A stretch of 35,242 bases of DNA. Source: Microcaldota archaeon (GTDB taxonomy: Archaea; Micrarchaeota; Micrarchaeia; Micrarchaeales; CABMGC01). A program made the position numbers and the translations under genes. Shown piece by piece: positions 6,870-19,829 of this stretch; position 1 is the stretch's first letter; each line of letters begins with the position of its first letter. The notes below the pieces were generated by a model that was not told the DNA's origin, searched no databases, and was given only the letters and a program-made list of their open reading frames with translations. The stretch lies in NCBI GenBank assembly GCA_021851065.1, contig JAJZJQ010000015.1:1-35242 (forward strand), written 5' to 3'.

Positions 6870-8324
6870 ATGAAATTCGAGGTAAACTATAGCACAATAG
6901 AAAGCGTCGCAGGGCCGCTGGTAGTGGTGGGAAAAGTAGGCACGGCGTCGTACAACGAAATCGTCAGGATAAGGCTGCCAAGCGGCGAGTCCAGGCTGGG
7001 CCAGGTTCTTGAGACCACAAGCAGGCATGCGGTAGTCCAAGTGTTCGGTCCTACTGATGGGATAAACATAGACAAGACTTCAGTTAGCTTTCTAGGCGAG
7101 ACCTTCAGGGTAGGCGTAAGCGAGGACATGCTCGGAAGAATATTCGACGGGCAGGGAAGGCCCAGGGATATAAAATCGGAGGTCTCATTCAAGGAGAAGA
7201 GGGATATCAACGGGGAGCCCATAAACCCTGCGGCAAGGGCCATGCCAAACGACTTCATAGAGACAGGCATATCCACTATAGACGGCCTGAATACTCTTGT
7301 GAGGGGCCAGAAGCTTCCGCTGTTCTCAGCCTCGGGTCTCTCGCACAACGAGCTTACTGCGCAGATAACAAGGCAGGCAAAGGTCAAGAAGTCGAACGAG
7401 GGGTTTGCCGTTGTTTTCGCGGGCATAGGGATAACATACGATGATGCCGAGTACTTCATAAACGAGTTCAGGAAGACAGGCGCCCTTAGCAGGACAGCTG
7501 CGTTCATAAACCTTGCAGACGATCCCAGCATAGAGCGTATACTCACCCCAAGGATAGCGCTGACCACTGCCGAGTATCTGGCATATGACAGGGGGATGCA
7601 CGTGCTTGTCATACTTAATGACATGACCAACTATGCAGAGGCTCTCAGGGAGCTTTCAAGCGCAAGGGAGGAGGTTCCAGGAAGAAGAGGATACCCTGGC
7701 TACATGTACACAGACCTTGCCAGCATATATGAGCGGGCCGGTATAATTAAGGGAAGGAAGGGCAGCATAACGCAGCTAAATGTTGTCACCATGCCTGGAG
7801 ACGACGTTACGCACCCTATACCGGACCTGACCGGCTACATAACAGAAGGGCAGATTTTCATGGCAAGGGACTTGCACAACAAGGGAATATATCCCGAAGT
7901 CAATCCACTGGGTTCGCTTTCAAGACTCATGTCAAACGGAATAGGGGACGGAAAGACAAGGGCGGACCACAGCAACGTCAAGGACCAGCTCTTCGGCGCG
8001 TATGCAAGGGCCCAGGATGCCAAGAGCCTAAGCTCCATAGTCGGCGCAGAGGCCCTAAGCGATACGGACAAGCTGTATCTCAAGTTCGGAGACGAATTCG
8101 AGAACCGTTTCATAAAGCAGGGCTTCTACGAGGACAGGACAATAGAGGACACGCTTTCGATAGGATGGGAAATCCTGTCAATACTGCCACAGTCTGAGCT
8201 CACTAGGATCAAGCCTGCCTACATAGAGGAGTACTACGGCGCCAAAGGAAAGGACGCACGGGCGCGCGGGGACGGAAAGGAAACCGGCAAAGAGCACAAA
8301 AACCATCCAAAGCCCAGCAAATAG
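6870..8324 (+). CDS. atpB: A-type ATP synthase regulatory subunit B
   Basis: The 484-residue product begins with the beta-barrel domain ([14 protein letters not shown]). Where A has its P-loop, B reads [15 protein letters not shown], the degenerate nucleotide site that defines subunit B. It also has [11 protein letters not shown], the interface segment [19 protein letters not shown], and [13 protein letters not shown]. It alternates with A in the head and contributes the arginine finger. The last ~25 residues are a Lys/Gly-rich tail. The start at 6870 follows GTGATACA. It lies 9 bases after atpA. Confidence 0.96.
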
Positions 8325-8334
8325 GAGTGAGGCG

Positions 8335-8973
8335 ATGATAAATCCGACGCGAATAAACCTCATAAATACAAGGCGCAGCATAGTAAGGGCGAGAAAAGGG
8401 CACGGCATACTTAAGAAGAAGAGGGAAGTGCTTGTCCTAGAGTTCATGAAGATGATACAGCAATCCACAAAGGACAAGCAGTACCTCTATGAACTGATGC
8501 ACAAGGCTTACAAGACCGTTGGAATAGCCTCAACGTACGTTGGCACGTTCGAGCTCGAGGAGCTTGCCATTCACATGAAGGAAGCAAAGCCCATAAGCAT
8601 AAACGTCAAGAACATAATGGGGGTGCGTGTGCCAGAGATAGGCAGGGCACAGGAGGAGCAGCAGGTAGACTACAGTCTGCTGTCAACCAATGTCTCAGTA
8701 GACGACATACGTGTATCGTTCGCAGGAGTCATAAGCACGATGATAGAGGTAGCTCAGAGGGAGCAGGGGCTTCGAAGGCTTGTTATTGAGATAGAGAAGA
8801 CAAAAAGAAGGGTCAATGCCCTTGACTATGTTGTCATACCAAGGATGCGCGGTCAGGCAAGGTACATATCCATGAGGCTAAGCGAGATGGACAGGGACAT
8901 GTTCTCTGCCCTAAAGCACGTCAAGAAGAAGATTGCCGCAGCCCACGAGGCCGAGTCTGCCCAAATAAACTAA
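8335..8973 (+). CDS. atpD: A-type ATP synthase subunit D (rotor axle)
   Basis: The 212-residue product opens INPTRINLINTRRSIVRARKGHGILKKKR, interrupted here only for length, the hallmark N-terminus of subunit D. Long N- and C-terminal helices (the latter ending ALKHVKKKIAAAHEAE) form the antiparallel coiled coil that turns inside A3B3; the variable middle holds GVRVPEI. It is the last gene of the operon. GGAGTGAGG lies directly upstream (8324-8332). No subunit G gene follows, and a gene for a different function begins 66 bases on. Confidence 0.94.
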   Translation: MINPTRINLINTRRSIVRARKGHGILKKKREVLVLEFMKMIQQSTKDKQYLYELMHKAYKTVGIASTYVGTFELEELAIHMKEAKPISINVKNIMGVRVPEIGRAQEEQQVDYSLLSTNVSVDDIRVSFAGVISTMIEVAQREQGLRRLVIEIEKTKRRVNALDYVVIPRMRGQARYISMRLSEMDRDMFSALKHVKKKIAAAHEAESAQIN

Positions 8974-11643: not shown

Positions 11644-11714
11644 GGAGGCATAGTCTAATGGTAGGACGCTACCCTTACACGGTAGAGGTCTGGGTTCGAT
11701 TCCCTGTGCCTCCA
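11644..11714 (+). tRNA. tRNA-Val (anticodon UAC)
   Basis: The 71-nt gene has acceptor GGAGGCA (11644-11650) pairing with TGCCTCC (11707-11713) and discriminator A. The D-arm is GTCT/GGAC, and the anticodon stem CTACC/GGTAG carries loop CTTACAC with TAC at 11676-11678. The T-loop TTCGATT is at 11695-11701. The T-stem CTGGG/CCCTG has one T-T mismatch (11691 with 11705, positions 50:64). No CCA is encoded and there is no intron. The last 12 bases are also the core of repeated sequences downstream, so this gene is the apparent target of site-specific integration. Confidence 0.95.
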
Positions 11715-11762
11715 TACAGTCGTTTACGCCGACAAGTGCGTTAAAACTCCTATTTATTTACT
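11703..11762. repeat. Right-arm repeat, copy A (overlaps tRNA-Val 3' end)
   Basis: This is a 60-bp repeat starting with CCTGTGCCTCC of the tRNA, followed by an inverted repeat GTCG-(7)-CGAC and ending TTATTTACT. It aligns without gaps to 16492-16551 (47 of 60 identical by eye) and 18341-18400 (46 of 60). The stop codon of the minus-strand gene at 11750 lies inside it. I interpret it as an attachment-site arm of an integrated unit. Confidence 0.75.
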
Positions 11763-12244
11763 TGCTCTTGTTCGATCTTATTGTGCCTGTTTTTGACCGC
11801 AGAGATCATTTCCCTGAGCTTCTGCCTTGTTATGTACAGTCCGCCCGAGAGCGCAAGTGCATCAGCTACTATGATTGGTACGGAATGAACCATTGCACCG
11901 TATATGGTCCAGGTAGATGTTGCACTGAGATCCAGGGAGAGCAGCTGTGGCGATATATCCTTTGTAGATCTTGTGTTCCAGGTATGAAGTACCTGTGGTG
12001 CATAAAGCGATGCCGTAGCTGCGGTAGCTATCCCACCAGCAAGGTTTGGATCTCTTGTTACTGCTGCAAATGCGGCACCAGCAATGCTTAGTGCAAGCGG
12101 TACACCAGACGTTACGAATGTGGAGATGGGACTTGCCGTAGAGTTAGACAGTTTCTCATCAAGAGATCTAAGCGAACGCTTTAAAGTCTTTTCATGGTCT
12201 TCTAGCCCTATTGCTTTATGCACCATCAAAATCGCTTCTGGCAT
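11750..12244 (-). CDS. PQ-loop (SemiSWEET-type) membrane protein
   Basis: The 164-residue product has an amphipathic N-terminus and three hydrophobic segments. The PQ-loop signature is SLYAPQVLHTWNTRST, followed by TWTIYGAMVHSVPI. SemiSWEETs are three-helix half-transporters that dimerise to move sugars; the substrate here is unknown. ATG 12244 is chosen because AAGGAG lies 4 bases upstream; a longer frame from 12301 would overlap the acetyltransferase gene by 50 bases. It follows that gene by 7 bases on the same strand, so the two form an operon. Its last codons lie in the right-arm repeat. Confidence 0.75.
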   Translation of the reverse strand: MPEAILMVHKAIGLEDHEKTLKRSLRSLDEKLSNSTASPISTFVTSGVPLALSIAGAAFAAVTRDPNLAGGIATAATASLYAPQVLHTWNTRSTKDISPQLLSLDLSATSTWTIYGAMVHSVPIIVADALALSGGLYITRQKLREMISAVKNRHNKIEQEQVNK

Positions 12245-12251
12245 TGACTCC

Positions 12252-13019
12252 TTATTCCCTTTTCGCTGCAGTAGTATTGTCACGAAGGTAATGCTGTGCA
12301 ACTACCTTTCCATAGTCCTCCCCAGGCATAGATACTGTTGGTATTATTAGCCCTGTTTTCTCATCTACAGCGAAGTCTATACCTTTGCCTGTCGAGCCCA
12401 CTCCTGCGGCCTTATGGAAGTCCAGTGTCTTGAAGATATGACCCATGATGGGATTCACTGTCCATCCCATCACTGCGGTGTTGCCATTTTCATTTGTTAC
12501 TGTGACGCTCTCCTTTATAAGAACATTGCCGAGACCAATGCCCCTGAACCTCTCACCTACGACCACATCGGCTATATATCCTACATTGCCAAGCTGATGA
12601 CCCCTCGAACTCACTATTTTCTCATACTTGGCAAGTATCTTGACTATATCGCCAATGTCTTCTGAAGCCACCATCCTTCCCTGCTGCATTGCAGCGGCAG
12701 GTTCCGTAAACATTGCCATTCCGCATACCACGCTGAAAGCCGCAGGCTTACCGTTAACGTGTATGTTTATAACGCCGCCCATATCATTCCGAAGCACGGC
12801 TTCAGCCAACTTTGCGAACTCCTCTGGTCCTTCCTTTTTTGCTGCTTTTATATTTGCCCAGAACTCATAAACGTGCCATGGCGGTTTTGTGAATCCAATC
12901 CCGAACTGCTTGCCGAACTCATCCATCCTCTTTGTATCATTGAGCATCGCCGATGCGTTATGCGTCCTGAATACCTCAACTACTACTTCTCTATTTGCCT
13001 GCGCTCTATTTGCTAGCAT
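12252..13019 (-). CDS. GNAT-family N-acetyltransferase
   Basis: The 255-residue product carries the acetyl-CoA pyrophosphate loop of GNAT enzymes: ADVVVGERFRGIGLGNVLI (RxxGxG/A motif), followed by a helix and MGWTVNPIMGHIFKTLDF, which resembles the motif B end (N-P...lGF). The first ~110 residues are not recognised and may hold the substrate site. It is the first gene of a two-gene minus-strand operon with the SemiSWEET-like gene, inside the unit 11703-13200. A TATA-like CTTAAATA (minus strand, about 13052-13060) precedes it. The acceptor is unknown. Confidence 0.72.
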   Translation of the reverse strand: MLANRAQANREVVVEVFRTHNASAMLNDTKRMDEFGKQFGIGFTKPPWHVYEFWANIKAAKKEGPEEFAKLAEAVLRNDMGGVINIHVNGKPAAFSVVCGMAMFTEPAAAMQQGRMVASEDIGDIVKILAKYEKIVSSRGHQLGNVGYIADVVVGERFRGIGLGNVLIKESVTVTNENGNTAVMGWTVNPIMGHIFKTLDFHKAAGVGSTGKGIDFAVDEKTGLIIPTVSMPGEDYGKVVAQHYLRDNTTAAKRE

Positions 13020-13140
13020 GTTTTCACAATAAATTGTTGTAGGTTTTCTCCTATTTAAGCTTGCCTAAAAGTAGCAATATATAAACAATATTTGTGGATT
13101 TTGGCACCATCTAAAACCGCATGTGTAATATTCCTACGTT

Positions 13141-13200
13141 GTTTTATTTAAATGATTTGAACTGGCAATCTACTAGAATCAGTAAAGTTCCTGTATCTCT
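13141..13200. repeat. Left-arm repeat, copy 1
   Basis: This 60-bp sequence aligns ungapped to 14269-14328 and 17283-17342. It shares GTTTTATTTAAATGATTT (18 bases) with the second copy and GGCAATCTACT with the third. It ends CTGTATCTCT, a degenerate form of the tRNA-Val 3' end CTGTGCCTCC. With copy A of the right arm it bounds the unit 11703-13200. Confidence 0.7.
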
Positions 13201-13232
13201 GTACGTTCCTGTGTAGTCATGATTTACAAACA

Positions 13233-13259
13233 TTTATATAGTTTGTAGTCATATATGAC
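13233..13259 (+). promoter_or_regulatory. fic promoter with palindromic operator
   Basis: TTTATATA (13233-13240) lies 29 bases before the ATG at 13262, so transcription is probably leaderless. The perfect palindrome GTCATATATGAC (13248-13259) sits between the TATA box and the start. TGTAGTCAT also occurs at 13212-13220 and TGTAGTCATATATG at 13244-13257; the latter recurs exactly at 14218-14231 after the gene. The placement suits repression by occlusion. Confidence 0.6.
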
Positions 13260-13261
13260 TT

Positions 13262-14194
13262 ATGAGCATTGAGATACAGGAAAAGATGGGTATTAAGTAC
13301 TATTACTTAGCGCACTCTTATCGTAAATTTGGAAAAGTCCGAAAGCTAAGGATCTATCTTGGTAGAGACTTGACAAACGATGCACTTGTTAAGAAGCGCG
13401 AAGATGCAGAAGTGCTCATAGAAGAGAGATTATCTAAGATCAAGAAGATAAGAGATCCATATAACGTTGCACTTACTGATTCTGAAATTCTAGAGCTTAA
13501 GAAGCTAACGTCCATTAGAAGGATTAAAATCACACATTTAAGTGATGACGAATGGCTTAAATTTACAGAGGCTTTTACATACGATACGAATGCCATAGAA
13601 GGGTCTACGGTCGAACAGAAGGAAGTCGTAAACATACTTGAGAAAAACAAGTGGCCAGATAAGTCAAAGGAGGAGATATCAGAAACGCTTGGCGTTGCGG
13701 AAGCCGTGAAGTACGTAAGGAAGACGAAGGAAGAATTGTCGATTGGGCTGATAAAAGAATTGCATATGATTGTGTTTAAGAACTCAAAAACATTTGCAGG
13801 TAATTTAAGAAAAATTGGGGAAGAAGTTGCAGTTATAGATTCAAATCGTAACATTGTACACCGTGGTGCACCATCCTCTAGTATTCTTTCGTTGTTGGAG
13901 GAGCTCATTAGGTGGTATAAAGCAAATAAGCGCAAATACCCACCCCTAGTTCTAGCTGCCGTAGTACATAATCAATTCGAAAACATTCATCCGTTTAGGG
14001 ACGGGAACGGCAGGGTCGGTAGGCTGCTTCTCATAAACATACTCTTAAAGCATAACATGCCTCCAGTTAACATAGAGCTAGAGAATAGGTTTGAATATTA
14101 TAAGGCATTGCAAGAATACGAACTAGATGGAAACATACGCCCCACGATTGAACTGTTGTTAAAGGAATATAGACGATTACGGAGAAGCCTTTGA
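13262..14194 (+). CDS. Fic-domain protein (AMPylase-type)
   Basis: The 310-residue product has a complete Fic catalytic motif HPFRDGNGRVGR from residue 243 (pattern HxFx[D/E]GNGRxxR). Enzymes with this motif transfer AMP or related groups from a nucleotide to a target hydroxyl. The inhibitory helix signature [S/T]xxxE[G/N] is TNAIEG at residues 109-114, N-terminal to the Fic domain, so this is a class II, self-inhibited protein. The N-terminal ~60 residues (YYYLAHSYRKFGKVRKLRIYLGR) form a separate basic segment seen in archaeal Fic proteins. The gene stands alone between two left-arm repeats and is AT-rich relative to the backbone, which suggests horizontal acquisition. Confidence 0.9.
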   Translation: MSIEIQEKMGIKYYYLAHSYRKFGKVRKLRIYLGRDLTNDALVKKREDAEVLIEERLSKIKKIRDPYNVALTDSEILELKKLTSIRRIKITHLSDDEWLKFTEAFTYDTNAIEGSTVEQKEVVNILEKNKWPDKSKEEISETLGVAEAVKYVRKTKEELSIGLIKELHMIVFKNSKTFAGNLRKIGEEVAVIDSNRNIVHRGAPSSSILSLLEELIRWYKANKRKYPPLVLAAVVHNQFENIHPFRDGNGRVGRLLLINILLKHNMPPVNIELENRFEYYKALQEYELDGNIRPTIELLLKEYRRLRRSL

Positions 14195-14217
14195 TATATG
14201 TCTACATTTTAGACTTA

Positions 14218-14244
14218 TGTAGTCATATATGCCCATATGGGCAT
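14218..14244. repeat. Direct copy of the fic operator and a 16-bp palindrome
   Basis: TGTAGTCATATATG at 14218-14231 repeats exactly the sequence before fic (13244-13257). It overlaps the perfect palindrome ATGCCCATATGGGCAT at 14229-14244. It starts 24 bases after the fic stop codon. Confidence 0.6.
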
Positions 14245-14268
14245 TACCAGATTGCATAATTCCATACT

Positions 14269-14328
14269 GTTTTATTTAAATGATTTAAACGGGCAATCTT
14301 ACCATTTCAGCATAGTCCCTGTGCCTCC
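14269..14328. repeat. Left-arm repeat, copy 2
   Basis: The second 60-bp left arm ends with an exact copy of the tRNA 3' end (CCCTGTGCCTCC, 14317-14328). The first 18 bases are identical to copy 1 (13141-13158). It closes the unit that carries fic. Confidence 0.75.
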
Positions 14329-14360
14329 ATTGAACCTTATTTTTGAGGGTCTTGTCGCCG

Positions 14361-14406
14361 AGTAATTTCCATAGAAATGGTGTGGGTTCGATTCCCCGAA
14401 ACTCCA
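14361..14406. repeat. tRNA T-arm remnant, copy 1
   Basis: TGGGTTCGATTCCC (14383-14396) is identical to the T-arm of tRNA-Val (11691-11704), and the following ten bases match its acceptor end at six positions, ending CTCCA. The preceding TAATTTCC and the spacing to the T-arm recur at 17383-17419. No acceptor 5' half or proper anticodon stem is visible, so it is not a functional tRNA. Confidence 0.55.
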
Positions 14407-14489
14407 TTAACGCTTTTCGAGAGCATAATGGTGACATTGGAGTATGCAGTAGAAAGATTTAAAGTTAGCATGGCCTATATTCTATTTGT

Positions 14490-15227
14490 ATGCCAGCAAA
14501 GAGTGAAGATATTGATAATAAGGCAAAACCAAGTTTTTTGAAAGATATTTTATACGGTCCTTTTCTAATACTGTTTTTGGGTCTGATTTTCGGATTTTTA
14601 ATGTTAATAGGCTTAAGTGCATTAAATAATATTCCTTCTTGTAGTATTCAATATATCTCTACTATCCAAAAGCTCTCTCCATCTCAGATAAAATTTAATT
14701 CGCTAATAGTAACATTGCTTTGGATTATTTTTCTTTTTGTAGTCCCTATTTTGTCTTATCGGTATATATTTAATAAAGACCGGGGTAAAACATTGTGGCT
14801 CTTTGCACTTTTAGTCTTTGAAGCAGTTATGATTGGCTCTTTTGGCGCAGCCTGCCCTAATCCAAACATTACGCGTTGCATACCTCTAAGCGGATATTAC
14901 TGTTGGAATGCAACATATAGTGCAAGTTCTGGTAATGTTTTGTTAGATGTAGAGCAGGATAGTGGCACCAACTGGTTGACAGCAAATATCTTCTTTGTTC
15001 CTGATGGAATTCCTTCAACTATCCCACCAAATGGTGTTGTAAATGCTTATGGCTATTCGACAGGCGGCCTAGCTAATGGTAAACCAGCACAAATAAAACT
15101 TGGAGTGTCAGAGCCAGGAATAGCTACTGGAACATTGACTGGCGGATCTATATGGGCAGTTGAAACAAACTCGTCAGGAAACCAATATTTTGTACAGATT
15201 GCTCTTATAGAATTAAGGGCGACTTAG
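14490..15227 (+). CDS. Uncharacterised membrane protein with extracytoplasmic domain
   Basis: I do not recognise this 245-residue protein. It has three hydrophobic segments at roughly residues 25-46 (ILFLGLIFGFLMLIGLSAL), 69-90 and 100-118. After the third it reads GAACPNPNITRCIPLSGYYCWNA, with paired cysteines, followed by ~100 polar, Ser/Thr/Gly/Asn-rich residues likely outside the cell. It could be a surface protein or the sensor part of a small system with the AAA ATPase 126 bases downstream. The gene is AT-rich and lies in the tRNA-Val island. Confidence 0.6.
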   Translation: MPAKSEDIDNKAKPSFLKDILYGPFLILFLGLIFGFLMLIGLSALNNIPSCSIQYISTIQKLSPSQIKFNSLIVTLLWIIFLFVVPILSYRYIFNKDRGKTLWLFALLVFEAVMIGSFGAACPNPNITRCIPLSGYYCWNATYSASSGNVLLDVEQDSGTNWLTANIFFVPDGIPSTIPPNGVVNAYGYSTGGLANGKPAQIKLGVSEPGIATGTLTGGSIWAVETNSSGNQYFVQIALIELRAT

Positions 15228-15319
15228 AAGTTTTTATGCCGATTATAGAATTACTACATTTGATATACAAACCCCAATTCTTACCTTAAGACCAAATCTC
15301 TGTGTAAATTACAAAGGCT

Positions 15320-15329
15320 TTTATATATT
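15320..15329 (+). promoter_or_regulatory. TATA box of the AAA ATPase gene
   Basis: TTTATATATT is centred about 29 bases before the ATG at 15353, the distance expected for a leaderless archaeal transcript. No ribosome binding site is visible before the ATG. Confidence 0.6.
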
Positions 15330-15352
15330 ACTGATACTACTATTAGTAACTA

Positions 15353-16417
15353 ATGGGTGTATTAGTGCTCTTTGACCTAAATCCGAAAGAAAACGTTCAT
15401 GACCTATACGATAGGAAAGCGGAGCTAGAATCACTATCATCGTCGCTAAAAAATGGAGAACGTCTGATAATTATATATGGTTTAAGGCGGGTAGGAAAGA
15501 CTAGCCTTATACACTCATTCTTGAATAAGCGAGAATTTCCATACATATTATTGGATATGAAGGAGATTTATCATGTTAGCGGTTCTGTGCCAATGAAGGC
15601 GCTTTACAATACAATCTTAAAGGAATTTACTAAGTTTGCTGAAAAAGTTGGTGAAGATGCAAACATAGATATAGATGATGAATTCAGATTACCAGACTTG
15701 CTTAAAGAGATAAATGAATGGTGCAAATCAAGAAAACTGATTTTTATTATAGCACTGGACGAAGCGCAGTATCTTAGATATGGGGGCAAAGTACGCTATG
15801 ATGGCATAATTGCGTGGGGAGTGGACAATCTCTCAAACATAACCTTTATCCTTACTGGAAGCGAAGCGGGAATGTTAAAAGAGTTCTTGAGATACGAAGA
15901 TGTAGAAGCTCCATTATACGGAAGGTTCAGGAATGAGATATATCTGAAAAGATTTACAAAGGAGGAAAGAGTGGCTTTCCTCAGACAAGGATTTAAAGAA
16001 GCTGGCAAAAATATAAGCAATGACGAATTGGAAGACACGATAAAGAATCTGGATGGGATAAGTGGGTGGCTAACATACTACGGATACTTCAGGACCATAA
16101 AGAATTTGGAACATAAGAAGGCAATCGAGCAGGTGTTTAAGGATGGTTCAGAACTCACTCTAAAAGAAATTGAAACGTTAATAGCGCGTTCTAGAAAGAG
16201 GTACACCTATATACTTAGGGCAATTGTAGAGGGATTTAACACGTGGAGTGTCATTAAAACTTATGTTGAGTCTAAGGCTGGTGGCGTGTCAGACACCGTA
16301 TTAAACTCATTATTGCAGGCTTTACTAAAACTTGGAATTGTGGAAAAAGAGCAAGATGATAGGTACGTTATCTTAGACCCTATAGCGATACATGCCATAA
16401 AGAAACTTAAGCCATAA
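15353..16417 (+). CDS. Archaeal-type AAA ATPase (STAND/MNS-like) with C-terminal winged helix
   Basis: The 354-residue product has Walker A GLRRVGKTS at residues 43-51 and Walker B/DExQ ALDEAQYLR with DE at 136-137. TGSEAGML is the sensor 1 region and LYGRFRNEIYLKRF resembles the arginine-containing segment of this family (Pfam Arch_ATPase type). The C-terminal ~90 residues (from about 265) look like a winged helix (LNSLLQALLKLGIVEKEQDDRYVI). Such ATPases are abundant in archaeal mobile and accessory regions and remain mostly uncharacterised. The membrane-protein gene precedes it, but it has its own promoter. It ends 74 bases before a right-arm repeat. Confidence 0.85.
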   Translation: MGVLVLFDLNPKENVHDLYDRKAELESLSSSLKNGERLIIIYGLRRVGKTSLIHSFLNKREFPYILLDMKEIYHVSGSVPMKALYNTILKEFTKFAEKVGEDANIDIDDEFRLPDLLKEINEWCKSRKLIFIIALDEAQYLRYGGKVRYDGIIAWGVDNLSNITFILTGSEAGMLKEFLRYEDVEAPLYGRFRNEIYLKRFTKEERVAFLRQGFKEAGKNISNDELEDTIKNLDGISGWLTYYGYFRTIKNLEHKKAIEQVFKDGSELTLKEIETLIARSRKRYTYILRAIVEGFNTWSVIKTYVESKAGGVSDTVLNSLLQALLKLGIVEKEQDDRYVILDPIAIHAIKKLKP

Positions 16418-16491
16418 GTATACAAGTCATACAACACCATACAAGCCATACAACGATATACATTGTACAAACTGAACCCATACGAGAATGT

Positions 16492-16551
16492 CCTGTGCCT
16501 CCATACGGTCGCTTACGTCGACAAGGATGTATAGACTCTCGCTTATTTACT
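16492..16551. repeat. Right-arm repeat, copy B
   Basis: The first 15 bases (CCTGTGCCTCCATAC) are identical to the tRNA-Val 3' end and its flank (11703-11717). The inverted repeat GTCG-(7)-CGAC is kept. The stop codon of the minus-strand methyltransferase (16547) lies inside it, as with the gene next to copy A. Confidence 0.75.
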
Positions 16552-17266
16552 GCTTGATTCCAACATACCTGTCTCTTCCCATAATGGCCCCTTTTAGTAA
16601 GATAGGACTGAATCCGACATCCTTTAGTAATCTTATGAACTCTTTTCTTTCCGTAAGTCGTAACTCGCTCTTATCAGCAACATCGGTAACTCCTTTGTTC
16701 TTCTCAGCTATTACATAGTGCTCGTCTAACACAGACATATTTCCGTGTATAGAAGAATAGCCTATCCGTGCAATCTTCAAACCAGCATAGTCATATGCTC
16801 TCATGTGAACAGAGCCGACATGCCAACGTGACTTATCAAACCAAGCGTCTATTATGCAGATGCCACCTGGATTAAGATGTCGATAAAAACCTCCGAAGGT
16901 TCTCTTTAACTGATCAGAAGTCTTGAGATATCCTATGGCACTGAAGAGGCATGTTATAACATCAAATCTTTCGTTTAAGTTAAGATTCATCATATTGCGC
17001 CGCTTGAATTCAACACCCTTTATGTTCTTTCTGGCTATAGCAAGCATTTCTCCATTTAAATCAGTACCAGCACATTTGTACTTCAGCTTCAAATACTGTA
17101 TATGCTTACCTGTTCCACAACCTACATCTAATAGCATATTTCCTTTGCTCTTCTTATACTTGGAAATTAGACGAGTTATATCATTGGATTCTTTCTTATA
17201 ATTCTTAAAGGAGTATATCACATCATAATATTTAGCTAGTTTCCTATAAGCATGTAGTTCGTCCAT
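16547..17266 (-). CDS. Class I SAM-dependent methyltransferase
   Basis: The 239-residue product has motif I LLDVGCGTGKH near residue 45, the acidic strand end CAGTDLNGEML, and FDVITCLFSAIGYL as motif IV. The small domain after residue 150 (WHVGSVHMRAYDY, LDEHYVIAEK) resembles SAM methyltransferases of small molecules. The substrate is unknown. It is the only gene in the unit bounded by right arm B and left arm copy 3. A TATA-like element on the minus strand (CATTTAATAAG, about 17286-17296) falls inside that left arm, about 25 bases before the start. Confidence 0.85.
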   Translation of the reverse strand: MDELHAYRKLAKYYDVIYSFKNYKKESNDITRLISKYKKSKGNMLLDVGCGTGKHIQYLKLKYKCAGTDLNGEMLAIARKNIKGVEFKRRNMMNLNLNERFDVITCLFSAIGYLKTSDQLKRTFGGFYRHLNPGGICIIDAWFDKSRWHVGSVHMRAYDYAGLKIARIGYSSIHGNMSVLDEHYVIAEKNKGVTDVADKSELRLTERKEFIRLLKDVGFSPILLKGAIMGRDRYVGIKQ

Positions 17267-17282
17267 GAAATTATGATGTAGG

Positions 17283-17342
17283 TATCTTATTAAATGTATA
17301 TTTCTGGCAATCTACTCGGTTCAGTAACCTCTCTGTGCCCCC
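17283..17342. repeat. Left-arm repeat, copy 3
   Basis: The third 60-bp left arm, ungapped against 13141-13200, shares GGCAATCTACT and TTCAGTAA-type positions and ends CTGTGCCCCC, one base from the tRNA end. It also supplies the probable promoter of the minus-strand methyltransferase. Confidence 0.65.
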
Positions 17343-17381
17343 GCTACCAGAATTTGTCATCAGATGTACTTTTGAATAAAA

Positions 17382-17419
17382 ACTAATTTCCTCGGCAAAA
17401 TTGCTGGGTTCAATTCCCC
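17382..17419. repeat. tRNA T-arm remnant, copy 2
   Basis: CTGGGTTCAATTCCCC (17404-17419) resembles the tRNA-Val T-arm. TAATTTCC lies upstream at nearly the same distance as in the copy at 14361-14397. It starts about 62 bases after a left-arm repeat, versus about 55 for the other copy. Confidence 0.45.
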
Positions 17420-17439
17420 ACCTTTTCAGTTTAATGGAA

Positions 17440-17631
17440 TCAAACCTGTATTTTCTTTGACCTTCTTTTTTTAGTGTATAAAATATCTAGAAATCTTTTC
17501 TGCCCCCTACTCCAGGTCTTGTTATCTGTCTTTATTACATAAGCAGAATATGCATCGATGTACTTGAAATTGTTTCTAAGATTAACCTCTTTTGCTTCCT
17601 TCAAACCATTTAGAATGCTATTTTGCTTCAT
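17440..17631 (-). CDS. Small basic protein downstream of nucleotidyltransferase
   Basis: The 63-residue product is Lys/Arg-rich (ends YTKKRRSKKIQV) and is not recognised. Its ATG at 17631 overlaps the end of the nucleotidyltransferase gene by 14 bases in another frame, a coupled arrangement that makes it likely to be translated. It could be the partner of a nucleotidyltransferase-type toxin-antitoxin or abortive-infection pair. AT-rich like its neighbour. Confidence 0.5.
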   Translation of the reverse strand: MKQNSILNGLKEAKEVNLRNNFKYIDAYSAYVIKTDNKTWSRGQKRFLDILYTKKRRSKKIQV

Positions 17632-18241
17632 CTAATTCGCCTAATACTTTCCTTACTATCTCTTTCTTTACGCGAAGTTCTGATATAAATCCAGTTAATC
17701 TATCTGTATCAATATACGCCTTAAAAATATTATAAATGTATCGTGCGTCTTCGTAATCCTTATCGCTCCCTAACCACAACTTGAATGCAATTTGTAGTTC
17801 TATTGGGGATGTGTAAATTGAGTATTTGTCGTTAAATGTAACTTTCATCTTGTTGTCCATAGTATGCCTATCAAGAGGCTTCTTGACGAACTTTAGTTCG
17901 AAGTTTGGCGCCCAAGTCCCTTTCTCAGCGTACCTCAGGGACGATCCTTCAGAAAGCAGTTCATATGCCTCTTTAGCATCTTCTACATTATTTACCGGTT
18001 CAAATCCGCTTTTGAGAAGCCTCCAATGTAATTCTTGAATTTGTTTTATGTCCATTTTGTTTAGTAGTATGTCAATGTCTTCCGTGCCTCTTATCCTTCC
18101 GAAAAAGATTGCTATGTAGCCGCTAACTATTACGTAACCAACATCGCCCATAGCCTCGATGAAGTTAATGACTAATTTGTCTAAAGTGGTTATTTCTTTA
18201 TGATTAAGCGTTATGTTGCTTCTGGAGAACCCAATTTCCAT
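17618..18241 (-). CDS. Nucleotidyltransferase-fold protein (AbiEii/MNT-like)
   Basis: The 207-residue product has the nucleotidyltransferase core VSGYIAIFFGRIRGTEDIDIL. The Gly-Tyr pair is at 41-42 and the metal-binding D55xD57 pair is in RGTEDIDIL. This matches the G[GS]-x9-Rx[T]xDxD pattern of DNA polymerase beta-like minimal nucleotidyltransferases, used by AbiEii toxins and MNT antitoxins. The C-terminal half (LQIAFKLWLGSDKDYEDARYIY) resembles the helical region of this group. TATA-like ATTTAATA on the minus strand (about 18265-18272) lies 24-31 bases before the start. It is in the tRNA-Val island and AT-rich. Confidence 0.75.
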   Translation of the reverse strand: MEIGFSRSNITLNHKEITTLDKLVINFIEAMGDVGYVIVSGYIAIFFGRIRGTEDIDILLNKMDIKQIQELHWRLLKSGFEPVNNVEDAKEAYELLSEGSSLRYAEKGTWAPNFELKFVKKPLDRHTMDNKMKVTFNDKYSIYTSPIELQIAFKLWLGSDKDYEDARYIYNIFKAYIDTDRLTGFISELRVKKEIVRKVLGELDEAK

Positions 18242-18340
18242 AATGGACTATAGAAATTATAGATATTAAATACTAGCGGCCATTAAAAACGGTTTTTACC
18301 AGCAAATGTGGGGGTTTTACAGGTGCATTTACATCGGCAT

Positions 18341-18400
18341 CCCCTGCCTCCCTGCAGTAGCTTAAGTCGACAAGGGCATTAAGAATCCTGCTTATTTACT
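18341..18400. repeat. Right-arm repeat, copy C (distal end of island)
   Basis: The third right arm aligns ungapped with copy A at 46 of 60 positions. Its core has drifted to CCCCTGCCTCC and the GTCG inverted repeat to GTAG-(7)-CGAC. No intact minus-strand gene ends in it. It is the last tRNA-derived repeat before the permease gene, so it marks the distal end of the island. Confidence 0.65.
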
Positions 18401-18521
18401 AAAAATTCTAGTGTAATAGGCAACTTGATTACTTAATGTCCCAACCATGTCGACTCTACGCCTGCCATCTCATGCATAAGACTTAATATTAGTTTCCAAT
18501 CAATCATTCTAGGGGCGTTAC

Positions 18522-19829
18522 TTGGGGTACAAACTAAGCAATACTGTGGCAATAGCCTTATGCCTAGGGGCAATAATCAGTGATACGTTATTCGTATTCA
18601 CCGGAGTTCCCATAGCCCAGATCGGCTCCCTTTCTATAGTTGCGTACATACTTGTAGGGGTTTTTGCCATAATAATAGCATTGCAGCTGGGCGAACTTAG
18701 TTCCACAATGCCGCATTCCAAAGGCGGTGCATATTCATATGTCACCAAGTCTTTTGGAAGCGAGCTTGGATTCATAACTGGGGCACTACTATATCTGGCA
18801 TATTGCGCCATGACATCTGTGATAGCGCTGGGCTTCTCAGGATACTTGCTGTCTATGCTTGGGATAAGCAATGAGCCGCTGCAGATTGCCGTTGCTGTTC
18901 TTTCAATAATCGCAATTTCAGTAGTAAACATGTATGGTCTCAGGAAGACATCAGGGCTTACACGGATACTTGTGACTGTTGCTCTTCTTAGTGCTGCGAT
19001 ATTTTGCATTTTTTCATTTTCCTACGGCATCAATAAAGGCACCATAGCAGCAGTCTTGACTTATGCTGGAAACGGCGGCGCAGGCACATTCCTCCAAGCA
19101 ACTACTGCCATAGTATTTGCCTATTCAAGCTTTCAGATAATGGTAACCTTGGCGGACAACATAAAAGAGGATGGAAAGGGAGCCGCGAAGATAATGGCCG
19201 TTTCTATCTTGCTGGGTGCAATTGCATATGTAGCAGTTACCATGGGGCTAATCGCACTCATCGCAGTACCGCACGCGATATCAGCAAACCCGCTTATTTA
19301 TGCACTGAGTTACGTAAACGCACCACGCGTCATCGAGCTTGCCATTGGTGCAGGTATACTCTTTTCAATAGCAGCTGCGCTGATAATGTTGGTATTCACC
19401 TCCTCGAGACTGGTATATGAGATAGGGCATGACAATCTTCTGCCTAGGATATCGAGGCTGTATGACAAAGAGAAGGGCGTTGCAACCAGTGGGATCTGGA
19501 TATCCGCACTTCTGTCAATAACGCTTCTATTCGCTGGGAACATATATGTGATATTGTCAATAAGCAATTTTGGCATAATAGTCTCCTGGGCAATGGCATG
19601 TTTTGCACTTATAAACATGCGAAGAAGAAACATAACGCGGAAATTCAGTTCCCCATATTACCCGTTCCTTAGCATACTGAGCATAGTGGTCTGCATCGTT
19701 CTTCTGTTTGGCCTTCCTGGAAACAGCCTCGCTTTTGGGATAACCATAATTCTTCTGCTCCTTGTGATATATTACATAATAGTTGAGATAAAATACAAGA
19801 AAGTGCCAAGGCTTAAGCTTTTCGATTAA
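18522..19829 (+). CDS. APC-superfamily amino acid permease
   Basis: The 435-residue product has about 12 hydrophobic segments. The first reads VAIALCLGAIISDTLFVFTG, matching the broken TM1 substrate segment of APC transporters, and MPHSKGGAYSYVTKSFG is the conserved TM2-3 loop. It likely imports or exchanges amino acids or amines with protons; the substrate is unknown. The start is TTG 18522: a stop codon lies at 18510-18512 in frame and no other start codon lies between. It is the first backbone gene after the tRNA-Val island. Confidence 0.88.
   Translation: MGYKLSNTVAIALCLGAIISDTLFVFTGVPIAQIGSLSIVAYILVGVFAIIIALQLGELSSTMPHSKGGAYSYVTKSFGSELGFITGALLYLAYCAMTSVIALGFSGYLLSMLGISNEPLQIAVAVLSIIAISVVNMYGLRKTSGLTRILVTVALLSAAIFCIFSFSYGINKGTIAAVLTYAGNGGAGTFLQATTAIVFAYSSFQIMVTLADNIKEDGKGAAKIMAVSILLGAIAYVAVTMGLIALIAVPHAISANPLIYALSYVNAPRVIELAIGAGILFSIAAALIMLVFTSSRLVYEIGHDNLLPRISRLYDKEKGVATSGIWISALLSITLLFAGNIYVILSISNFGIIVSWAMACFALINMRRRNITRKFSSPYYPFLSILSIVVCIVLLFGLPGNSLAFGITIILLLLVIYYIIVEIKYKKVPRLKLFD

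Follow-up and report, generated by a model that had tools for sequence, protein, structure and literature searches.

Recombination by tyrosine integrases at a core preserves the tRNA gene and leaves a repeat. Archaeal elements that carry such integrases re-use one tRNA site, giving rise to arrays, and some integrated elements have no integrase (PMC6563490, PMC8371274); these tandem archaeal elements are viruses, plasmids or other autonomous elements with replication genes, or decayed copies. The closest precedent for the locus described here is the set of Dehalococcoides ssrA islands, which are tandem and strain-variable and are bounded by direct repeats of the 3' end of the RNA gene; 15 of them are without an integration module, and these were proposed to be cis-mobilizable elements (CIMEs) moved by accretion (PMC3146451). 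We report an array of small gene units behind a tRNA-Val gene in a stretch of 35,242 nucleotides (the window: the whole of contig JAJZJQ010000015.1, assembly GCA_021851065.1, C10 in our numbering) from a Candidatus Micrarchaeota metagenome-assembled genome (MAG) of 1.13 Mb in 36 contigs, 87.5% complete. Acid mine drainage is the habitat of the tiny archaea that bear such arrays. Comparison with related genomes suggests that these are probably integrase-less, CIME-like mini-units, which accumulate in series and are moved in trans by tyrosine integrases specific for tRNA-Val.

The array resembles the Dehalococcoides islands in its tandem units behind an RNA gene, its repeats of that gene's 3' end and its integrase-less members. 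Those islands have a serine recombinase module and a transfer-messenger RNA (tmRNA) gene, and are larger, being found up to about 100 kb downstream of ssrA. Here we find tyrosine integrases, tRNA-Val, one- or two-gene units of 0.6-2.2 kb, an archaeal DPANN host, and arms of defined families that different cargos exchange. Unlike the tandem archaeal elements, most units carry accessory cargo only, and they are met repeatedly as short units that are still intact. Integrons, too, have small gene cassettes that are shuffled in an array behind a single site, but the locus has no attC and no integron integrase, its core is that of a tRNA, and each unit has two unit-specific ends. The Tycheposons of Prochlorococcus, a host with a streamlined genome, also target tRNAs by tyrosine recombinases and bring accessory cargo; as generally described they are larger and have their own recombinase, whereas the units here are integrase-less mini-units. 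Neither integrases nor mobile elements are mentioned in a recent study of gene transfer in Micrarchaeota (PMC12892359), and a literature search of open-licence papers returned no report of such cassettes in DPANN archaea. Tandem tRNA and tmRNA islands with integrase-less members are already known; the gene-cassette scale, the mix-and-match ends and the DPANN host appear to be new. The array works like an integron array, and by descent it is closest to integrase-less tRNA islands.

Results

The only tRNA gene that ARAGORN predicted in the window is tRNA-Val(TAC) (11644-11714, plus strand; 70.7 bits with Rfam), the attachment site, whose 3' end supplies the core. Beyond it lie five units of 0.83-2.2 kb and one remnant. 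The 12-nt core consists of the last 11 nt of tRNA-Val and one further base. It is present in three exact copies (CTGTGCCTCCAT; core 1 at 11704-11715, the others at 14319-14330 and 16493-16504) and three degenerate ones (CTGTATCTCTGT at 13191-13202, CTGTGCCCCCGC at 17333-17344 and CCCTGCCTCCCT at 18342-18353), all on the plus strand, in the orientation of tRNA-Val. As in a tRNA genomic island, the insertion is at the tRNA 3' end and a direct repeat stands at the far side. An earlier note, made from the letters of the window, had described groups of AT-rich accessory genes between repeated arms, and base composition agrees: G+C content is 36-38% in units 2-5 and 45% in unit 1, compared with 47-50% in the flanks.

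Each complete unit is bordered on either side by an arm of about 50-70 nt. A repeat search of the window recovered the 60-nt repeat that the earlier note had called a right arm, at 11703, 16492 and 18341, with 77-78% identity; it is the left end of units, which we call LC. Searched against the whole genome, the copy at 11703 matched itself, the copy at 16492 (E-value, E, 6.8e-8), one unrelated tRNA and nothing else. The supposed left arm, placed by the note at 13141, 14269 and 17283, also proved to be real: 47 nt align ungapped and in register from 13148, 14276 and 17290, at 72-74% identity, forming the right end RC. Two families of ends, as first counted, were too few, because LA/RA surround unit 5 and LB/RB surround unit 3; taxon-wide there are at least six left-end and at least five right-end families.

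To compare ends between genomes, we used profile models of 60-70 nt that contained neither the core nor any window sequence, and searched 1.3 Mb, redundant loci included. These core-less models, built from other genomes, found RA (18280-18342, E 5.8e-17), LA (17345-17413, E 1.7e-10), LB (14332-14399, E 1.5e-8) and RB (16444-16492, E 1.5e-6) in the window. In the reverse direction, a model of the window LC alone matched isolate DBS2.bin41 (E 7.4e-10), and the window RC matched G078 (E 6.7e-8) and G097 (E 4e-7), which belong to two other genera (G numbers denote genomes). The arms are paired in more than one way: LC-RC and LB-RB occur in the window, and LC-RB, with other cargo in between as the note had thought worth looking for, occurs in G010, DBS2.bin41 and G099. 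The search for an arm motif shared by every family yielded only an enrichment of GTCG/CGAC in left ends (3.5-fold relative to unit interiors) and of TTTAC in right ends (about 8-fold); as the families are not independent, these are only a hint of recombinase arm sites.

The tRNA-Val site was read across the genus and the family. Relatives that the unit 5 protein retrieved are titled Candidatus Micrarchaeota and nearly all are MAGs. The tRNA-Val locus could be read in 11 genomes of the genus, the present one included; in these the sequence right behind the tRNA differs and falls into several left-end families. Additional cores follow tRNA-Val in G002, G004, G006, G010, G011, G013, G015, G028, G034, G036, G073, G074, G085, G099 and DBS2.bin41, and are also found in G021 and G030 on contigs that do not reach the tRNA. 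Across 79 family genomes the core 12-mer had 90 matches, many single ones being the tRNA itself, compared with 6 for a reversed control. All arrays that could be read have the tRNA core as their exact starting point and run in the direction of the tRNA.

The same units recur in different orders. G010 has Fic, RelBE and nucleotidyltransferase units behind the tRNA, DBS2.bin41 has the same three as Fic, nucleotidyltransferase and RelBE, and the proteins of these permuted units are 78-96% identical. The type A unit (unit 5 of the window) is also found in G002, G004, G010, G034 and DBS2.bin41, ranking first in G002 and G004, second in DBS2.bin41, fifth in the window and last in G010; whatever its rank, both of its ends stay attached. 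The ATPase unit and the nucleotidyltransferase unit occur in other genera at 82-89% amino acid identity, among them an 89% relative of the window ATPase that precedes a core in G036. Cargo also changes arms. Fic stands between LC and RB in G010 and DBS2.bin41 and before RC in the window, and a two-gene cargo (63 and 81% amino acid identity) follows LB in G006 but in G099 is flanked by LC and RB. Because cargo recurs in other orders and other arm contexts, we conclude that whole units move and that, over longer times, arms and cargo are exchanged.

The earlier note had named an old fixed region with chance similarity as the reading to adopt if the arms were absent from the tRNA-Val loci of relatives or if gene order were conserved in distant relatives. 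The arms are present at those loci, the order is permuted and, since the end models find homologous ends across genomes, this reading is removed. Chimeric assembly is unlikely because like junctions occur in many independent MAGs.

The array was proposed to be without an integrase, and so it is: tblastn with recombinases of the genus found no match in the window, and the genome's six matches to Pfam Phage_integrase are all on contigs other than that of the window. Looking for a tyrosine recombinase elsewhere, as the note had advised, placed those six at other tRNAs, namely tRNA-His, Thr, Asp and Asn (group I, which carries a C-terminal zinc-ribbon-like end) and tRNA-Arg and Ala (group II). Within the tRNA-Val site, tyrosine integrases were found in six relatives. 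They are of group I, right behind tRNA-Val, in G003, G024 and G032, and of group II in G011, G001 and G073, the G001 copy being on the reverse strand with one stop codon. G073 holds a complete 5.9-kb element with D-type ends and an integrase, followed immediately by an integrase-less LC unit with methyltransferase cargo and an RC-like right end.

Left ends are common to units with and without an integrase. The integrase-bearing unit of G011 shares its left end with integrase-less units in G018 (E 1e-8) and G002 (E 6e-7), and that of G032 with G023 (E 3e-8); no right end was identified in the G018, G002 and G023 units. The left end of the integrase-bearing G003 unit matches that of G010 at 26/28 nt (E 6e-4), the distance to the core being equal in both. 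Having no integrase or transfer genes of their own, the window units differ from tRNA genomic islands, which have an integrase gene within the island, and agree with CIMEs. They are also flanked, as CIMEs are, by attachment sites of related mobile elements, judging from cores and ends that are common to other units and from C, D and E left ends that are common to integrase-bearing units.

Unit functions were assigned with Pfam, NCBIfam and PADLOC. Unit 1 (11716-13190) runs from LC (11716-11777) to RC (13127-13190), with a SemiSWEET-like open reading frame (ORF; 11750-12301) and a GNAT-like ORF (12252-13019), both on the minus strand. Unit 2 (13203-14318) has no recognizable left end and ends in RC (14255-14318); its Fic gene (13262-14194, plus strand) encodes the motif HPFRDGNGR and is 78-80% identical in amino acids to the Fic units of G010 and DBS2.bin41. 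In unit 3 (14331-16492), LB and RB enclose a 245-aa membrane-like ORF (14490-15227) and an ATPase (15353-16417), both on the plus strand, the latter being ATPase_2/STAND-like with a Walker A motif. Unit 4 (16505-17332) consists of LC (16505-16569), an S-adenosylmethionine (SAM) methyltransferase on the minus strand (16547-17266) and RC (17269-17332). Unit 5, of type A (17345-18341), has LA, a 63-aa ORF (17440-17631) and a 207-aa nucleotidyltransferase-like ORF (17618-18241), both on the minus strand, and RA, which reaches 18341. The remnant, unit 6 (18354-18420), is a lone left end LC, past which the ORF of a flanking amino acid permease begins at 18522.

The name nucleotidyltransferase for the 207-aa protein is provisional because its best fold matches, MenT-type nucleotidyltransferase toxins, reach a TM score of only about 0.3; its predicted structure is of low confidence (pLDDT 66), and a sequence search of the PDB found no match. 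A 48% relative of this protein adjoins tRNA-Glu in the complete genome of Ca. Micrarchaeum sp. A_DKE (L142, NZ_CP060530.1), where the Val-type core was not seen at its ends. The window showed no replication, capsid or plasmid genes in its units and no relatives in virus or plasmid collections. Carriage by viruses or plasmids was rejected: IMG/VR had no match to the ATPase, the G003 integrase or the type A nucleotidyltransferase in protein scans, nor to either of two attP-like patterns, and a distant blastn search with 11703-18400 found none in phages or plasmids.

Several arrays and arms had further features of their own. In G028 (L099; cores at 14317 and 15124, minus strand), 41 identical bases follow both neighbouring cores, which suggests that a unit was inserted or duplicated very recently. 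In G074 a 0.7-kb LB unit precedes a D left end, and a second such end lies at the tRNA. In LSA5.bin73 (L134, ~7328-8913 of the reverse complement) a type A unit without its left end has related sequence on either flank (ORFs with NPNARCSSPNTFY), which may be a transposable element or repeat. A T-arm-like stretch (GGGTTCRATTCCC) lies 50-65 nt past the core in LB (14384-14407) and LA (17391-17413), and in LB is followed by a diverged acceptor end, ACTCCAT; it may be an older tRNA end that was displaced, or else a second site of recombination. The idea of a tRNA-like structured left end was dropped. The stretch at 14384 is a 10.9-bit match to a tmRNA fragment in Rfam, and a scan of the arms for other Rfam RNAs returned tRNA only.

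The tRNA-Val site is not unique in its genome (G000), but it is the richest. Ends of 13 nt recur downstream of tRNA-Glu, Phe, Thr, Ala and Leu, compared with about 0.1 for shuffled ends; at tRNA-Thr there are two weak repeats. Behind tRNA-Glu(TTC) (L159, G000:C19:18000-30900; tRNA at 12643-12717, minus strand) are two units with repeated cores and similar right ends (GGTRGGCACTTAACYGGA), whose cargo is two methyltransferases and an ATPase. Arrays at tRNA-Glu across the genus were rejected: the core is repeated in this genome only, and relatives in the genus have a single core. A possible third array is at tRNA-Phe (L151, G000:C23; tRNA at 15891-15966, minus strand), where VapBC-like, methyltransferase and RelBE-like genes lie between weak repeats of the 3' end. 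At tRNA-His, tRNA-Asp and tRNA-Asn (L040, L042 and L043), a group I integrase gene begins right behind the tRNA 3' end or overlaps it; the integrase comes first, beside its attachment site.

Discussion

The mobility of the units and their use of the tRNA-Val site are strongly supported by comparison, through the end models and the permuted arrays, and this part of the earlier proposal of cassettes mobilized in trans stands. We infer the second part, mobilization in trans, on two grounds: the integrases that the window lacks are present at this site in relatives, and left ends are common to units with and without an integrase. Excision, circularity and the pairing of integrases with arms are inferred as well. 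In a circular unit the right arm, the core and the left arm would together form an attP. Its core would be recombined, either with that of the tRNA or with one at a junction already present, by a tyrosine integrase specific for tRNA-Val that comes from an autonomous element occupying this site, resident or in passing (integrases like those of G003, G032 or G073 are candidate helpers); the tRNA would stay intact, with one more unit behind it. Arrays would grow by repeated insertion, and decay by mutation of cores and loss of ends.

Several points weigh against this reading. Its support is a comparison of genomes, in which neither an excised circle nor an empty-site read was seen. The links between left ends and integrases are strong for families D and E and weak for C, the commonest in the window: the profile match between G003 and LC vanishes when G003 is left out of the model, and only the 28-nt pairwise match remains. 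Some units have probably ceased to be mobile, given that three of the six window cores are degenerate and an end has been lost from two units. As the MAG is 87.5% complete, an integrase for tRNA-Val could also be missing from the assembly.

Degeneration of this kind is what one would expect if the units were the remains of autonomous tRNA-Val elements that lost their own integrase by deletion and are now immobile, the differences between genomes reflecting separate histories of insertion and deletion. Such a relic array would fit the degeneration of three cores, the missing left end of unit 2, the bare left end of unit 6 and the stop codon in the G001 integrase, and integrase elements of 5.9-6.5 kb do enter the site (G011, G073). 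However, deletions that arose independently would have to spare, in many genomes, both ends together with the same short cargo; type A units have kept their cargo and their ends in at least six, and near-identical units occur in permuted order. We therefore regard a relic array as unlikely. Homologous recombination among co-occurring strains, through repeated ends and conserved flanks and with no site-specific recombinase acting on small units, seems more improbable still. Repeated LC and RC ends could pair, and some unit types have common ends within one array, but neighbours mostly differ in end family and their common 12-nt core is short for pairing; moreover, readable arrays all start at the tRNA core in the same orientation, and units recur across genera.

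A classical integron, with attC cassettes inserted by an integron integrase, would likewise give one- or two-gene units at a fixed site, and in G003, G024 and G032 an integrase is beside that site. This explanation is already contradicted and has almost nothing left to recommend it: the recombination point is the tRNA 3' end; each unit has two ends of its own that do not depend on the neighbour, unlike attC, which we judged absent on these grounds; and, with the integron integrase model TIGR02249, the G003 type is not listed and the G011 type scores 21.6 bits, where the cut-off is 265. We hold more tentatively, as a possibility on the doubtful side, that DPANN archaea have an integron-like system of their own, in which single-gene units, devoid of an integrase from the outset, are caught between interchangeable arms, and a tRNA-specific tyrosine integrase located beside the tRNA acquires, reorders and loses them at several tRNA genes of one genome (Val, Glu, possibly Phe and Thr).

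Movement of CIME-like mini-units by integrases acting in trans, if true, would be of consequence for Micrarchaeota, whose genomes are near 1 Mb. An exchangeable shelf of cassettes at a tRNA gene, holding Fic, toxin-antitoxin-like, methyltransferase, ATPase and transporter cassettes, would be a concrete route of gene gain in streamlined archaea, and integron-like behaviour would have arisen from ordinary tRNA integration.

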